Shown here: one piece after another, positions 12,805-19,808 of the stretch
Numbering within the stretch: the stretch's first letter is position 1
Layout: each line of letters starts with the position of its first letter
Source of the DNA: Thermoplasmata archaeon
Lineage (GTDB): Archaea > Thermoplasmatota > Thermoplasmata > Thermoplasmatales > Thermoplasmataceae
Length of the DNA stretch: 38,435 nt
Assembly: GCA_021835025.1 (NCBI GenBank)
Contig: JAKBQY010000058.1
Span: forward strand, 4,729-43,163
Reading direction: 5' to 3'
Program-made: the position numbers and the translations under genes
Notes under the pieces: model-generated
Told to the model about the DNA's origin: nothing
Databases searched by the model: none
The model's input: only the letters and a program-made list of their open reading frames with translations

Positions 12805-13461
12805 ATGCCCCTGGAAATAAATAAAAGTGACATATATACATCAGTATTTTTTAACGATTATTATGATCTTAAATACAACTTCGAAAAACATCTTCAAAAG
12901 GATAACAATTATGAAATAAGGTTTGACCTTTTTGGTAAAAAAGATTTTCAAACGTTAAATAATGTGTTGGATTATCTATTAAAAAATGGGATAAATCATA
13001 TATTCACCTATAGGTCGCATAATGTTGAGGAACTTTTAGATATATATAAAAAGGCAATAAATATTTCTCCAATAATTGATATAGATATTAATTCATATGC
13101 ATTCACGAGAGATATGTTCAACAGGTCAAAGCTAATGCTTTCGTTTCACGGAGAAAATGATGACAATATAGAGGAAATTGTCAAAACAATGGTGGAAATA
13201 AAACCTGACATATATAAAATTGCATTGAATTACAGTGATTTAAGCAAATTTTTTGATGATATGCAATATTTAATAAAATTTAAAAATGAAATGGGCAAAA
13301 AAATTGCATTCATACCAATGGGAGAGAAAAATAGTTTTTTAAGGATAATATCCGGCTTTTTCCTGTCAGATATCATGTATGCATCTTATAAAAACAAAAC
13401 TGCACCGGGCCAGTTATCACTGGAAGAGTATATGAATATTTACAAAATATTTAAATTATAA
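12805..13461 (+). CDS. aroD: 3-dehydroquinate dehydratase, type I
   Basis: A 218-residue shikimate-pathway enzyme that dehydrates 3-dehydroquinate to 3-dehydroshikimate through a lysine Schiff base. The active-site residues are in place: E37-x-R39-x-D41 (YEIRFDLF), FTYRSH (67-72), the catalytic H115 (LSFHG), Schiff-base K138 (IYKIAL), R180 (FLRI) and the lid TAPGQLSLEEY (199-209). Length is normal for archaeal AroD. A TATA-like TTTTATATAATAA lies 20-30 bases before the ATG, so it is probably leaderless. It stands apart from the tryptophan/DAHP operon. Its last 11 bases overlap the convergent marC gene. An IS605 relic ends just upstream. Confidence 0.95.
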   Translation: MPLEINKSDIYTSVFFNDYYDLKYNFEKHLQKDNNYEIRFDLFGKKDFQTLNNVLDYLLKNGINHIFTYRSHNVEELLDIYKKAINISPIIDIDINSYAFTRDMFNRSKLMLSFHGENDDNIEEIVKTMVEIKPDIYKIALNYSDLSKFFDDMQYLIKFKNEMGKKIAFIPMGEKNSFLRIISGFFLSDIMYASYKNKTAPGQLSLEEYMNIYKIFKL

Positions 13462-14080
13462 ATATATGTATTATTCCTGTTGTAATCAAATCCACCGCTA
13501 TCGCTGTTAAAAGTAGGCCCATAATTCTGGATATTACTATTGAACCAGTTTTTCCCAGCTTTCCAAAAATTTTTACTGAGTATTTCAGGACAAAAAATGA
13601 AAGAATCAAAACGGTTATAACTGCAAGGATAACAATAAACCTTGATATCAATGTTATGTTGGCAGTGTTAAAAAATATGATGGCCGTTGTGATCGATCCT
13701 GGACCTGCAAGGAGGGGTGTTCCCAATGGCGCTATGGCTATTGCCTCTCTTTCAGCTGATTCATCCTTTTCCGTTTGTGTCATTTTGGTGGTTGATAGTT
13801 TGCCCTGAAGCATATCAAAACCAACTTTAAACAGTAAAATTCCACCTGCTATTTCAAAATCGTATATATTTATACCAAGGATATCAAAAATATATATTCC
13901 CAGAAACATAAAGCCAAATATCATTCCTCCAGCAGTATATATGGATCTTCTTATTATCTCATGCCTCTCCTTTAAGCTATATCCATCCGTCAATGATATC
14001 AGTACAGGTACAGCACCTATGGGATTCATAATTGCAAATAATGCAGCGAATGCAGTAACAAAAACCAGGATTAAAGACAT
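13451..14080 (-). CDS. MarC-family integral membrane protein
   Basis: A 209-residue protein with about six transmembrane helices in the MarC/UPF0056 pattern. The opening helix is followed by ALFAIMNPIGAVPVLISLT. The second half has the related APLGTPLLAGPGSITTAI, and both halves share the small-residue, proline-rich motifs that mark this inverted-repeat family. Members sit in the cytoplasmic membrane. Despite the name there is no firm role in antibiotic resistance; a transporter function is suspected. It is alone on its strand, convergent with aroD. AT-rich sequence (TAAATAGAGTATAAA) directly precedes the ATG. Confidence 0.9.
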   Translation of the reverse strand: MSLILVFVTAFAALFAIMNPIGAVPVLISLTDGYSLKERHEIIRRSIYTAGGMIFGFMFLGIYIFDILGINIYDFEIAGGILLFKVGFDMLQGKLSTTKMTQTEKDESAEREAIAIAPLGTPLLAGPGSITTAIIFFNTANITLISRFIVILAVITVLILSFFVLKYSVKIFGKLGKTGSIVISRIMGLLLTAIAVDLITTGIIHIFII

Positions 14081-14163: not shown

Positions 14164-15645
14164 TTATTGATATGTTCTTTCATCGTTGTAATAACGGGGG
14201 GTGCTGTACTCGCCTTTTTGTGAACCGGTTGTTTCGCCGCTGATAGCATTATACATGCTTCCATAATATTTTTTAATTTTTTCTTCAACGGGTATATACA
14301 ATGAAAGAGCTTCCTTTACATCATTTTTTTCAATTAATTTATGATTTTTTTCTACTGCCATATCACCTGCAGCCCTGATAAGACCGCCTAATTCCCTCAT
14401 TCTCAATGTTAATGAATTTTCTTTGTGATCCTCCTTGGCCCTGCGCTTACCCTCCTCTATTATAAGAGTTACCGCATCCATGGTCATGTGGGGTATTTTT
14501 CCATCTATATTTATTTCCTGTGCAATAAACTGTAAATATTTCATACGATTTTGATTGTTGTCCGGCATGGCAATATCCATCAATATTTCATAACCATTTC
14601 CAAGTATTCTGGATCTCAATGGACTTAAGATATACTGTAAATCCTGTATATTGCATGCAGCAACAAGAATAAAATCAGAAGGTACATCGTCAACCCTAAC
14701 GCTTGCACCAGCACTCTGTGGATTCCTTCCGATTATTGGGAATTTCCTTTCCTGCATTGCGGTTAAAATGAATCTCTGAAGATTTCCAAGGTGGGTGATT
14801 TCATCAATAAATAATACACCCTCATGTGCTATATGTACAGCACCGGCAACAACACGTTCATATGGCAGGGTTCCCAGTTGTGGGTGCCCCCCATATGGAT
14901 CATGCCTTACATCCCCGAGAAGTTCGGTTTCGCTTGCCCCTGTTGCCAGAACAAATGGATTTCTGTCTATAGGGACTATAACCTTGCTTGGGCTTTTCTT
15001 TTCTATTTTTCTCCTTTTTTCAAGAGTTTTTTCATCAAGAACTCTGATCTTGTCACCATATTTTTCATATACCACAATTTCCTCTCTATCCCCGATCTTT
15101 CTTGTTTGCGTTACCCTTTCATTGCCATTGTTCATTCCAAATGCCACACCAATAACATTGAAAACATCATTGAATGGCCCCTGTGCATTATTTACTATCT
15201 TGTTATTATTGCAATTTGGGCATATATTCTCTGTTGGCGAAGAATAAAATCCACAATGGGGGCACCTATAACCAAGTCTTTCAGCTACATTCTGGGGAGC
15301 ATCCTTTGGATCAATTATTTCACCCTCAATTGAATTCAATTCATGCTTTTCCCTTTCTATTTCATTGATGGTTTTTACCTCTATAAAAGGGCGTTCTGGA
15401 TAGGAAGGATTATGAACAACCCTGATTTCTTCCTTTGGCCTTTCTATATAAAATGACATTGCCTGGGCTATCATGGATTTTCCAACACCAGGCGGACCTA
15501 CGAGCAACATATTCCTTCTCTGCTTTGCTGCGAGTAGTGCCATTCGTACAGCTTCATCCTGGCCCACAACACGTTCAAGTGGACTTGATGGTATTTTTAT
15601 ATATGATGTGTCTGGAAAGTCGCTGAAATTTATATATGTTCCCAC
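14164..15645 (-). CDS. Lon-like AAA+ ATPase with zinc-ribbon insert, no protease domain
   Basis: A 493-residue AAA+ protein whose ATPase core resembles archaeal LonB. Walker A GPPGVGKS is at 50-57, Walker B GVLFIDE at 276-282, sensor-1 asparagine about 332 (AACN) and arginine fingers about 344-346 (SPLRSR). A C-terminal helical lid has sensor-2-like SLTLRMRELGGLIRAAGDMA. Between Walker A and B, where LonB has membrane helices, there is a zinc ribbon with cysteines at 128, 131, 142 and 145 (CPHC...CPNC), followed by a charged segment. The chain ends soon after the lid (EEKIKKYYGSM, then a polar tail). The Lon Ser-Lys peptidase domain is absent, so it should be a remodelling ATPase, not a protease. 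Its start overlaps the end of dnaG by 16 bases, which indicates coupling. Its partner and substrate are unknown. Confidence 0.9.
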   Translation of the reverse strand: MGTYINFSDFPDTSYIKIPSSPLERVVGQDEAVRMALLAAKQRRNMLLVGPPGVGKSMIAQAMSFYIERPKEEIRVVHNPSYPERPFIEVKTINEIEREKHELNSIEGEIIDPKDAPQNVAERLGYRCPHCGFYSSPTENICPNCNNNKIVNNAQGPFNDVFNVIGVAFGMNNGNERVTQTRKIGDREEIVVYEKYGDKIRVLDEKTLEKRRKIEKKSPSKVIVPIDRNPFVLATGASETELLGDVRHDPYGGHPQLGTLPYERVVAGAVHIAHEGVLFIDEITHLGNLQRFILTAMQERKFPIIGRNPQSAGASVRVDDVPSDFILVAACNIQDLQYILSPLRSRILGNGYEILMDIAMPDNNQNRMKYLQFIAQEINIDGKIPHMTMDAVTLIIEEGKRRAKEDHKENSLTLRMRELGGLIRAAGDMAVEKNHKLIEKNDVKEALSLYIPVEEKIKKYYGSMYNAISGETTGSQKGEYSTPRYYNDERTYQ

Positions 15646-16937
15646 GTAACCACCCTTATATTATCAGGCTTTTTGGTCACATGCCCGGTTTTTACTCCGT
15701 ATATGCTTTTTATACCAATATTATTTGCAATATCTATTAATCTCTGGGTTATAATCCCGCCGGTTATCAATACCGTAGCCCCTTTTATATTTTCCAGGGC
15801 ATCAACTCCTTCGGAAACAGGGTATCTTGCAACGGGATTGGATGATTCATCATATAACTCCATTTCCTTACTTTCATATAATTCATTTAATTTTGTTCGG
15901 ATATATTTTGGGTTATTTATATCATTGATTTCCTCAACGGTCTGTATTTCCTGGTAATGTCCTGCCTGAATTTCCTTTTCCTTTACTTTTTTTTCCCTAT
16001 CACCGTTTTTTGATGAATTTTCTTCCTTTAGATGGTCAATTTTTTGATTTTGATTTTCCTGGTTTGATTTCTCATTAAATTCTTTTAATTCATCTATCAT
16101 TCCATGGGATTCAAGATACTGTTCAACCGGAGTCTTATATTTCAATGCTTTAACTATCTGTTTGTAGGTTAATTCTTCAACCTCCGTTCCCGGTGGGGCT
16201 CTTGCAATAAAATCAACATCTGCAACCTGCAACATTTCCTTTATGATCAATTCACCACCATGGTCACCATCAACAAAGAGAGTTACAGTCCTTGACTTGG
16301 AAAGATCTTTTACAGTTTTTGGCACATTTGTACCCTGAACCGCTATTGTATTTTTTATACCATATCTTAAAAGGTTAAGAACGTCATTTCTGCCTTCTAC
16401 CACAATAATTGAATCCGAATTGTTTATTGCGGGTCCAGCTGGTAAATGTTCTTCGCCATAAGATATTATTTCCTTCTTTTCAACCTCTTCCCTTACTGAT
16501 TGAATAATGCTTTCACTCAGGCTTTTGCCATTATCTCCCATTTTTTTGTAAAGCTCTTCAGCTCTCTGGATGACTTTATCACGCTTGTTTATCCTGACAT
16601 CTTCAACATTTTCAATTTCAACCTTGGCCTTGCATGGGCCTATCCTGTCAATGGTCTCAAGGGCAGCAGCCAGAATTGAGCTTTCCACCTGGTCCAGTCC
16701 GGATGGTATAAGGGCAAAACCTTCAGTTCTACCTTTTTTGGTATCAATTTCAACCTCTATCCTCCCTATTTTACCACTTTTTTGCAAATCCCTTAAATCC
16801 AGTTCTTCACCAAGAAGACCTTCTGTTTGCCCAAAAATCGCACCAACAACATCAGGTTTTTCAACAACCCCGTCAGTAACAATTTTAGCCTTGATTAAGT
16901 ATTTTGTTATATTTGGATCGACATTCACTATTATCAC
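15630..16937 (-). CDS. dnaG: DnaG-type primase, archaeal (Toprim protein)
   Basis: A 435-residue archaeal DnaG homologue. Residues 1 to about 165 are the archaeal N-terminal domain (DPNITKYLIKAKI, DVVGAIFGQTEGLLGEELDL). The Toprim domain has the metal-binding E181 (IIVVEGRND) and D223-x-D225 (LFVDGDHGG). A Lys/Glu/Asn-rich low-complexity linker spans about 285-335, then a conserved C-terminal part (GATVLITGGIITQRLIDIANNIGIKSIYGV). In archaea this protein has RNA-priming activity in vitro and is also found with the exosome, where it helps bind poly(A), so both roles are possible. It is the first gene of a unit with the AAA+/zinc-ribbon gene. It lacks the N-terminal zinc domain of bacterial DnaG. 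Confidence 0.95.
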   Translation of the reverse strand: MIIVNVDPNITKYLIKAKIVTDGVVEKPDVVGAIFGQTEGLLGEELDLRDLQKSGKIGRIEVEIDTKKGRTEGFALIPSGLDQVESSILAAALETIDRIGPCKAKVEIENVEDVRINKRDKVIQRAEELYKKMGDNGKSLSESIIQSVREEVEKKEIISYGEEHLPAGPAINNSDSIIVVEGRNDVLNLLRYGIKNTIAVQGTNVPKTVKDLSKSRTVTLFVDGDHGGELIIKEMLQVADVDFIARAPPGTEVEELTYKQIVKALKYKTPVEQYLESHGMIDELKEFNEKSNQENQNQKIDHLKEENSSKNGDREKKVKEKEIQAGHYQEIQTVEEINDINNPKYIRTKLNELYESKEMELYDESSNPVARYPVSEGVDALENIKGATVLITGGIITQRLIDIANNIGIKSIYGVKTGHVTKKPDNIRVVTWEHI

Positions 16938-17607: not shown

Positions 17608-18201
17608 ATGTTACTGGTATTGGAAGAATATTTTAAGGAATACCCCGTTAAAAAAAAGATAGTTGAAACACTTTATAATAATGGTGTTTCTATTAAAAAC
17701 GGCAAATTCTTTCTCAATGATATTGAAATTTCTTTATCCAGTATAGCCGAATCCATCAAGGTTAACAGGAGAACAGTATATGAAACCATAAAATTTGTCA
17801 ATAAAAATGAAGTTATTAAAAAAATTATGGAAAATGTTTTCAGCCAGACGGACACCTCCAGAGTATCATTGTTAATGGGAAGCCAGATAGTTACCATATA
17901 CATAAATAAAGGTTCATTTGCCAGGGTATATTGGGAAGTTATGTCTTTAACGAAAAAATACACACCATATATAAAGGAAATGTATTGTAAAAATTCTGAC
18001 CAGGAAGAAACGTTTATAAAAATGATATTTTATAATGAAATTGACAGCAATATTTACAGGGATATGGATGGGATTGCCGGAATAAAACATATTGTAATTA
18101 ATTCACCCGTTAAAATAAACGTGATTTGCAATAAATGTGAAATTAAAATTTGCCCTCATAAGATATCATCAGAAATTAATAAAGCAGAAATGTATCCATA
18201 A
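17608..18201 (+). CDS. Predicted regulator with HTH and ACT-like domain
   Basis: A 197-residue protein that matches the archaeal family of predicted amino-acid metabolism regulators. The N-terminal part (EYFKEYPVKKKIVETLYNNG) leads into a helix-turn-helix (SLSSIAESIKVNRRTVYETI, about 43-62). The C-terminal half has an ACT-like beta-alpha-beta pattern and ends with a cysteine pair (VICNKCEIKIC). Such proteins are thought to bind DNA and sense amino acids, but no target is known to me. The leaderless start at 17608 is well supported by the TATA box. The next regulator gene on the same strand begins 51 bases on, behind its own TATA-like box. Confidence 0.8.
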   Translation: MLLVLEEYFKEYPVKKKIVETLYNNGVSIKNGKFFLNDIEISLSSIAESIKVNRRTVYETIKFVNKNEVIKKIMENVFSQTDTSRVSLLMGSQIVTIYINKGSFARVYWEVMSLTKKYTPYIKEMYCKNSDQEETFIKMIFYNEIDSNIYRDMDGIAGIKHIVINSPVKINVICNKCEIKICPHKISSEINKAEMYP

Positions 18202-18252: not shown

Positions 18253-19191
18253 ATGGACGTGGATGAAAGAAAAGAATTGCTAAAAAAAATTTATACTTTC
18301 TTGAGATCAAATGATTTCAATGTCTCAGAACCGGATTTATACGGACTTGTTACATTTGATATTGTTTGCAGGAGAGAGAATGAAAAATACATATTAAAAA
18401 TACTTTACAATATTGATACATTCAACAGGTTCAGCGTTTCATCTTTGCTGAAGATGGAAAAAATTACAGGCTCAATAGCCATAGTGATAGGTGAAAAAAC
18501 AGGCAATGGAAAACTTGAAAATGGTGTACTTTACTTCAGGCATGGAATACCAATATTTTCATTAATAACCTTCAAAGATTATATCAATGGCCAAAAACCA
18601 TGCATATATTCTGCCCCAGGTGGATTTTATGTTAAAATAAATGGGGAGAAAATGAGGGAAATAAGAAACATGAGGAATTACTCAATTGGTGATATTTCAC
18701 AAAAACTCGGTGTCTCAAGGAGGTCAGTATCACTTTATGAGTCCGGCAACTCCGCAACCATAGATGTATATATAAAACTTGAAAAATTATTAAATGACAA
18801 TTTAAGCAGAGAAGTTGATATAGGCCTGATGAAAAACAACATAAATATTGAAGGGGAAAGTACCAATGATGTCTTTATAAAATTTGTATTCAACATAATG
18901 GATAATCTTGGATATATTTCAGAATACATAAGCAGAAATCCTTTTGATGGCCTTTCTTATGATATGAAATCCTTTTTGATGATAGGAACATTCAATAATA
19001 TAAATGATAATATAAATAGAATCGTATCCATCAAAAAAATCAGTGATGTTTTGGAAGATGTTCCAGTTATATTCAACAGGGAAATTTCCAATAAAGAAAG
19101 CATATATGGTTGCCCTGTATTGAGCATGAAAGATATAATGAATATAAGTGATCGGGATAAATTTAGAAAATTAATTGAACAGAGATTATGA
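18253..19191 (+). CDS. Archaeal XRE-type HTH regulator
   Basis: A 312-residue predicted transcriptional regulator of an archaea-specific family. The first 130 residues form a conserved alpha/beta domain (RSNDFNVSEPDLYGLVTFDI, TGSIAIVIGEKT, FRHGIPIFSL) that resembles a nuclease-like or sensory fold. A Cro/XRE helix-turn-helix lies at about 136-165 (SIGDISQKLGVSRRSVSLYES). The remaining 140 residues are helical and unassigned. A TTTTTATAC box lies 15-22 bases before the ATG. Its stop overlaps the start of the next gene (TTATGA), so those two are co-translated and probably act together. The regulated genes are unknown. Confidence 0.85.
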   Translation: MDVDERKELLKKIYTFLRSNDFNVSEPDLYGLVTFDIVCRRENEKYILKILYNIDTFNRFSVSSLLKMEKITGSIAIVIGEKTGNGKLENGVLYFRHGIPIFSLITFKDYINGQKPCIYSAPGGFYVKINGEKMREIRNMRNYSIGDISQKLGVSRRSVSLYESGNSATIDVYIKLEKLLNDNLSREVDIGLMKNNINIEGESTNDVFIKFVFNIMDNLGYISEYISRNPFDGLSYDMKSFLMIGTFNNINDNINRIVSIKKISDVLEDVPVIFNREISNKESIYGCPVLSMKDIMNISDRDKFRKLIEQRL

Positions 19192-19808
19192 TTCTAAAAA
19201 TTAATGATGGCCTCTATATTTATGGAGGAATAAAGGGTTTAACGAGGGATGGAAACGATCTGGGGAGCCACCTAAATTCAATAAAACCGGATATTATTTT
19301 GATTACAATATCTCCGGAGGAAGTGAATGGAATTAAGTATTTTATTGAAAATCCATTTGAAATGTCACTCTCTGATTATGAAATAATATACGGAGTGAAT
19401 TTATCAAAATATGGCGAGGTTATGACGCCTTCTCCAATTTATATAGAGACTGCGAAGTATTCAAACAAAAATAACATCGATATTATAGGAATTGATATGG
19501 ATGAAGAGGAGTATCAAAAAGCTTATGCACAGAATATAAAAGTTTTTGACCTCCTCAGACACTCAATGAGAAAAAAGAAAATAAGCAGAATTAAATTTGA
19601 GAATGAAACCCCAGAGGATTATGTTGCCAAATGGAATGAAACAGTTGATGTTGGTGGATTTTATAAATTGAACCGGATAAGGTTGAATTACATGATAAAA
19701 AAAGCGGACTCAATAATTGATGAAAACGGGAACAAAAAAATAATGTTTGTGTCCGATTATGACTATTATCCAGAAATATCAGAATATTTTGACCACAAGA
19801 AAATGTAA
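19188..19808 (+). CDS. Unknown protein coupled to the XRE regulator
   Basis: I cannot assign this 206-residue protein with confidence. It has an alpha/beta pattern: strands LYIYGGIKG, DIILITISPEEV, IDIIGIDMDEEEY and KIMFVSDYDYYPE, with helices between. The order (a PDxILITIS strand, a helix-rich middle, then DIIGIDMD, and a late IMFVSDYDYYPEI strand) recalls the TraB/PrgY-type fold seen in archaeal proteins, but the key TraB motifs are not clear. No membrane segment or signal peptide is visible. It overlaps the regulator stop codon by four bases, which indicates a shared function. It is convergent with the RlmE gene, whose stop codon abuts its own. Confidence 0.7.
   Translation: MILKINDGLYIYGGIKGLTRDGNDLGSHLNSIKPDIILITISPEEVNGIKYFIENPFEMSLSDYEIIYGVNLSKYGEVMTPSPIYIETAKYSNKNNIDIIGIDMDEEEYQKAYAQNIKVFDLLRHSMRKKKISRIKFENETPEDYVAKWNETVDVGGFYKLNRIRLNYMIKKADSIIDENGNKKIMFVSDYDYYPEISEYFDHKKM

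Follow-up and report, generated by a model that had tools for sequence, protein, structure and literature searches.

A dnaG-linked, protease-less LonB-type AAA+ ATPase with an inserted zinc ribbon in archaea: a candidate remodeller in RNA and ribosome surveillance

The window analysed here is a stretch of 38,435 nucleotides from a contig of a Thermoplasmata archaeon (JAKBQY010000058.1, positions 4,729 to 43,163). Its span 14164-16937 is occupied by two minus-strand genes, encoding a AAA+ ATPase and DnaG, which share the 16 bases 15630-15645, as the earlier note had read them. The features of this span and the ordinary neighbours on both sides are as follows:

14164..15645, minus strand: LonB-like AAA+ ATPase of 493 aa that carries a zinc-ribbon insert and has no protease domain; start codon GTG
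15630..16937, minus strand: dnaG, 435 aa, a Toprim protein of the archaeal DnaG type; start codon GTG
15630..15645, minus strand: overlap of the dnaG 3' end with the ATPase start, 16 nt
15475..15498, minus strand: Walker A GPPGVGKS, ATPase residues 50-57
14962..15360, minus strand: inserted domain, ATPase residues 96-228, at the position of the LonB membrane anchor
15211..15264, minus strand: CPHC...CPNC zinc ribbon, Cys 128, 131, 142 and 145
14800..14814, minus strand: Walker B LFIDE, residues 278-282
14608..14616, minus strand: Arg-finger region RSR (R344, R346), assigned by homology to LonB
14395..14397, minus strand: sensor-2 arginine R417, assigned by homology
16173..16412, minus strand: DnaG Toprim domain, about residues 176-255
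15633..15917, minus strand: DnaG C-terminal domain, about residues 341-435
12805-13461, plus strand: type I 3-dehydroquinate dehydratase, ordinary neighbour
13451-14080, minus strand: MarC/NAAT transporter, ordinary neighbour
17608-18201, plus strand: TrpY-like regulator, ordinary neighbour
18253-19191, plus strand: HTH regulator PRK04140, ordinary neighbour
19188-19808, plus strand: unassigned 206-aa ORF, ordinary neighbour

The identity of the DnaG neighbour is unambiguous (NF003108, archaeal DnaG, 524 bits against a cut-off of 300), and with its N-terminal, Toprim and C-terminal domains it represents an authentic archaeal DnaG. For the ATPase the best NCBIfam family is LonB (TIGR00764), at 338.5 bits and under the equivalog cut-off of 516.6, and the Pfam LonB_AAA-LID model reaches its cut-off. 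Current family models thus give this protein as a sub-threshold LonB, with the risk of its being misnamed as a protease. The Pfam search of the 493-aa protein gave no match to Lon_C, the Ser-Lys peptidase, and little of the chain is left beyond the AAA+ lid. The Walker A-B interval carries CPHC at residues 128-131 and CPNC at residues 142-145, and no transmembrane stretch was found in the protein, the maximal 19-residue hydropathy being 1.29 versus 3.39 in the LonB of the same genome. That LonB is a stand-alone paralogue, a single complete protein of 652 aa on contig C54, whose two hydrophobic helices fall precisely between its Walker A and Walker B, and which also has Lon_C and GDSAS; the ATPase is about 49% identical to it over the C-terminal AAA half. 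Family scores, hydropathy and the missing Lon_C agree with the earlier description of this protein as a LonB-like ATPase lacking the peptidase domain and support its being LonB-derived and soluble, and the motifs, hydropathy and contrast with the own-genome LonB bear out its claim that a zinc ribbon takes the place of the LonB membrane helices.

Judged from sequence, the zinc-ribbon ATPases are a clade distinct from LonB. In a tree of 98 rows, made by a quick method with few LonB rows and midpoint rooting, the 89 zinc-ribbon sequences group together on a single branch (SH-aLRT 100), which none of the nine LonB rows joins. The bit scores obtained in the genome surveys separate in the same way, at about 465-855 for the zinc-ribbon family (lower for fragments) versus at most 313 for LonB matches; one protein of 668 aa, from genome G209, reaches 375 bits and falls with LonB in the tree. 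Identity with MCM or another replicative helicase was considered and rejected, since the PF00493 match (23.5 bits) is just at the cut-off and LonB fits far better in both sequence and fold.

For the full-length protein AlphaFold2 gives a confident model with a pLDDT of 89.7 and a pTM of 0.83, and its best PDB match by Foldseek is the LonB ATPase of Thermococcus onnurineus (3k1j/4zpx, E 6e-36). The AAA+ proteins MCM and RuvBL are also among the matches, MCM with a far weaker E of about 1e-8. In the insert (residues 96-228) the zinc ribbon is predicted to precede a beta unit of three strands and a helix; the pLDDT of the insert-only model is 72.6. Neither Foldseek nor profile search gave a significant relative of this domain; Pfam returned weak generic zinc ribbons only, and the viral fold library distant AAA+ matches only. 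Homology therefore gives no lead on the binding target of the insert, nor on the earlier note's suggestion that the zinc ribbon recognises nucleic acid or the partner.

An alignment of 60 diverse homologues from across the surveyed groups shows no variation in the four cysteines, in either Walker motif, in the sensor-2 arginine R417 or in R346, and R344 is nearly invariant. Since these residues are invariant in 60 sequences, both the ATPase function and the metal site appear to be under selection. Chance is excluded because the four cysteines are invariant in the 60 homologues and five phylum-level groupings share the gene order.

A scan of the genome collection yielded 76 loci of the zinc-ribbon ATPase. 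The family is present in 88 of 243 Thermoplasmatota genomes, and within this phylum its distribution is uneven: the class Thermoplasmata has 70 positive genomes out of 71, compared with 18 of the 172 other Thermoplasmatota (154 are without it). Altarchaeota (22 of 29 genomes) and Micrarchaeota/Iainarchaeota (47 of 116) also carry it, and among Asgard genomes 43 of 148 are positive, so most of those sampled are without it. These statements are valid for the groups sampled; Sulfolobus and other Crenarchaea, Methanobacteriota, methanogens of other phyla and Halobacteriota (haloarchaea) lie outside the survey. DnaG is described as universal in archaea, and since most other Thermoplasmatota and Asgard are without the ATPase, DnaG does not need it.

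For the linkage to dnaG each protein was counted once, identical copies being dropped, provided that its upstream flank reached 1 kb or more or that dnaG itself was present in the locus, and loci were grouped by source. Of the 172 loci that could be scored in this way, 118 have dnaG as the immediate upstream gene on the same strand, and such loci occur in every surveyed group: 64 of 64 for Thermoplasmata, 16 of 18 for other Thermoplasmatota, 20 of 30 for Asgard, 12 of 20 for Altarchaeota and 6 of 40 for Micrarchaeota/Iainarchaeota, where 34 loci keep the ATPase without the adjacency. Adjacent pairs are invariably ordered dnaG-ATPase on one strand, and overlaps of 4-23 nt between the genes recur in most Thermoplasmatales loci. 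The functional tie to DnaG that the earlier note had proposed thus gains support from a linkage conserved far beyond the genus, and coupling of the ATPase to DnaG appears, on this genomic evidence, to be right. We found no paper on the dnaG-ATPase pair in the open literature searched, a search outside which many subscription journals lie, and within that literature this LonB-type AAA+ protein is uncharacterised.

Some other genes were observed around the pair in single groups. In several Thermoplasmatales an AP_endonuc_2 gene (endonuclease IV-like TIM barrel) lies divergently upstream of dnaG (L010:3391-4401, minus strand; L014, L023, L038, L045). Directly upstream of dnaG at the Micrarchaeota/Iainarchaeota loci L059, L069 and L219 are genes for a CBS-domain protein and for a small, free-standing Toprim-like protein of about 140-160 aa, the latter with a Pfam Toprim match obtained in L069 and L219 only. 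In one Thermoplasmata lineage (L040:7537-10099) genes for a TerY-like vWA protein, a PP2C-like phosphatase and a kinase, recognised by eye, follow the ATPase.

One may suppose that the protein is a general unfoldase or chaperone, for example feeding the 20S proteasome, and is merely co-expressed with dnaG. In favour of such a role, its nearest relatives, the Lon ATPases, translocate proteins, several AAA+ unfoldases are in use in Thermoplasmata, and 54 of the 172 scored loci have the ATPase without dnaG adjacency. We nevertheless consider it unlikely. Clustering of the neighbours revealed no gene besides dnaG that is conserved between phyla, and this sole partner keeps a fixed order on one strand, while no proteasome gene was found as a recurrent neighbour. 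In addition, the pore-loop region is unlike that of LonB, being one residue longer and reading HDPYGGHPQLGT (HDPYGGHPxLGT) in the ATPase versus HDPFQSGGLGT in LonB.

The neighbours restricted to single lineages point mostly to RNA and the ribosome. In an Asgard group (L118-L139) the gene for aPelota, with eRF1_1/2/3 domains, lies 15-73 nt downstream of the ATPase in 22 of 22 loci, with dnaG upstream of the ATPase-aPelota pair in most of them; these ATPases score 470-527 bits and keep the zinc ribbon. The tRNA intron endonuclease EndA is encoded about 100 nt upstream of the ATPase in four Jord/Freyarchaeal loci. In Altarchaeota the context is mixed: gins51 adjoins the ATPase in four loci (L063, L073, L097/L222, L221), at a distance of 1-44 nt downstream or with an overlap in L063, L097 and L221 and beside a truncated ATPase in L073, and in L222 the ATPase is followed by gins51 and then by the gene of ribosomal protein eL42/L44e. 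An RfcS-like gene is found near the ATPase in L063, L073 and L221. Some Altarchaeota genomes have a second zinc-ribbon ATPase, and it is one of the two copies that stands beside gins51 (L063, L221, L097/L222, G041). Since each is limited to one lineage, these associations are suggestive, and the Pelota, EndA and gins51 linkages could reflect shared expression alone.

The gins51 loci slightly favour the role in priming that the earlier note had offered as one of two options. In this case the ATPase would be a replication factor, a loader or remodeller of the DnaG primase acting at the fork with GINS and clamp-loader proteins, which would accord with gins51 in the four Altarchaeota loci and the RfcS-like gene in three of them, with MCM and RuvBL among the Foldseek matches, and with Berthon et al., who read a hint at replication in the gene context of DnaG (PMC2643942). 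However, gins51 accompanies only the Altarchaeota paralogue, and at least G041 has a second copy next to dnaG; L222 belongs to the gins51-L44e cluster, which mixes replication and ribosome genes (PMC2643942); the MCM match is far behind that of LonB; and the 2014 study of DnaG revealed links to RNA metabolism and not to replication (PMC4227792). For these reasons a replicative function seems to us distinctly unlikely.

The second option of the earlier note was a role in the exosome. In Sulfolobus DnaG is an exosome cap subunit with an RNA-binding N-terminal and an exosome-binding C-terminal domain, which binds RNA and enables rRNA tailing (PMC4227792), and the ATPase might be an obligate cofactor feeding the archaeal exosome through DnaG. 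Rrp41 is indeed present in 81 of the 88 ATPase-positive Thermoplasmatota genomes and in 78 of 78 Micrarchaeota/Iainarchaeota genomes sampled, although in the latter group the co-occurrence is uninformative because all of them have it. An ATPase devoted to the exosome alone would be expected to disappear along with it. However, seven ATPase-positive Thermoplasmatota genomes (G323, G332, G339, G345, G375, G379, G383) gave no Rrp41 at the search threshold of 1e-60. Four of these are 93-95% complete, G383 is 91% complete and two are 69-79% complete. A relaxed search of the seven yielded nothing beyond two-domain proteins resembling PNPase, single frames resembling RNase PH, or a fragment, and neither Rrp42 nor the N-terminal domain of Rrp4/Csl4 was detected in them. 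Five of the PNPase frames (G379, G323, G332, G345, G383; L253, L255-L258) exceed the bacterial PNPase equivalog cut-off TIGR03591. The dnaG-ATPase adjacency is kept in six of the seven genomes, with G345 as the exception, and its persistence without exosome genes argues that the pair is centred on DnaG and not on the exosome. Many exosome-positive genomes, moreover, are without the ATPase. The role in the exosome as the earlier note had put it is thus not borne out, since the pair survives without Rrp41, Rrp42, Rrp4 and Csl4, and with ATPase-positive genomes existing without an exosome we reject an obligate exosome cofactor as very unlikely.

The exosome-less genomes keep the C-terminal domain of DnaG in well-conserved form, which suggests that this domain has a partner other than the exosome; the alternative is that the exosome was lost recently. 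The apparent absence of the domain in Altarchaeota proved to be a trimming artefact. As a separate observation, several Thermoplasmatota families appear to have a bacterial-type PNPase replacing the archaeal exosome, and two genomes of one PNPase-bearing family of this phylum (G354, G362) carry both.

Finally, that the ATPase is a decayed LonB paralogue devoid of function, as the loss of the protease domain and membrane anchor might suggest, has a negligible probability and is rejected, because the catalytic residues, the cysteines and the reading frame are kept across five phylum-level groupings within a single supported branch.

We tentatively propose, with a confidence somewhat short of even, that the ATPase may be a DnaG-dependent remodeller of ribonucleoproteins or ribosomes, acting in RNA and ribosome surveillance. 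This proposal draws on the invariant or nearly invariant Walker A/B, sensor and Arg-finger residues, the confident LonB-like model, the cross-phylum adjacency to dnaG, the RNA binding and rRNA tailing activity of DnaG (PMC4227792), the neighbourhoods with aPelota, the tRNA endonuclease and the ribosomal protein of L222, the adjacency that survives the replacement of the exosome by PNPase, and the DnaG C-terminal domain conserved in those genomes. Against it stand the 34 of 40 Micrarchaeota/Iainarchaeota loci that have the ATPase away from dnaG, its absence from most other Thermoplasmatota and most sampled Asgard genomes, the restriction of Pelota, EndA and gins51 to one lineage each, and the mass spectrometry of Thermoplasma acidophilum chromatin, in which DnaG (Ta0097) was detected and the list contains no such ATPase (PMC7325993).

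The surveillance role might be realised in the following manner. The ATPase would have arisen from a LonB ATPase that lost its peptidase domain and exchanged the membrane anchor for the zinc-ribbon/beta domain, giving a presumably active, soluble AAA+ remodeller that assembles into a ring. Being translationally coupled to DnaG, it would probably share substrates with it. DnaG, as the RNA-binding partner, may mark or hold structured RNA or stalled ribosomal particles, to which the ATPase could dock either through its zinc ribbon or through the DnaG C-terminal domain. By threading or unfolding the bound proteins the ATPase would expose the RNA of such a particle, and a phosphorolytic exonuclease (the exosome, or PNPase where the exosome was lost) would then tail or degrade it.

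For the role of DnaG beyond the exosome, an operon partner that is shared across phyla and has its own ATPase motor offers a direct handle, the more so as this partner is retained when PNPase replaces the exosome. The Asgard gene order dnaG-ATPase-pelota points towards ribosome rescue and RNA surveillance close to the root of the eukaryotes.

Among known systems, LonB (TIGR00764; T. onnurineus 3k1j/4zpx; T. acidophilum Ta1081) is the nearest, with a common AAA+ core, Walker A/B and LonB-type lid; the ATPase differs in having neither the Ser-Lys peptidase nor membrane helices, and in its zinc-ribbon/beta insert at the anchor position. RuvBL1/2 and ComM are AAA+ rings whose client-binding domain is inserted between the two Walker motifs. 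Their plan is similar and they appear among the distant Foldseek matches, but the core of the ATPase is of the Lon clade, its zinc ribbon is not the OB-fold of RuvBL, and the sequence relation is only that of generic AAA+ proteins. With respect to the archaeal exosome, the ATPase corresponds to no known subunit, and the dnaG-ATPase pair occurs also where exosome genes are lacking. Cdc48/p97 in ribosome-associated quality control resembles it in the proposed mode only, as an unfoldase without a protease of its own; the ATPase belongs to a different AAA+ clade, with a single AAA+ domain and without the N-domain, so that the analogy would be functional and not one of homology. A wider and rather unlikely picture is that DnaG and the ATPase constitute an ancient archaeal machine for ribonucleoprotein remodelling upstream of the exosome or PNPase, coupled in Asgard to Pelota-dependent ribosome rescue, which would make it a counterpart, in function and not by descent, of the eukaryotic Ski/TRAMP or Cdc48 helpers.
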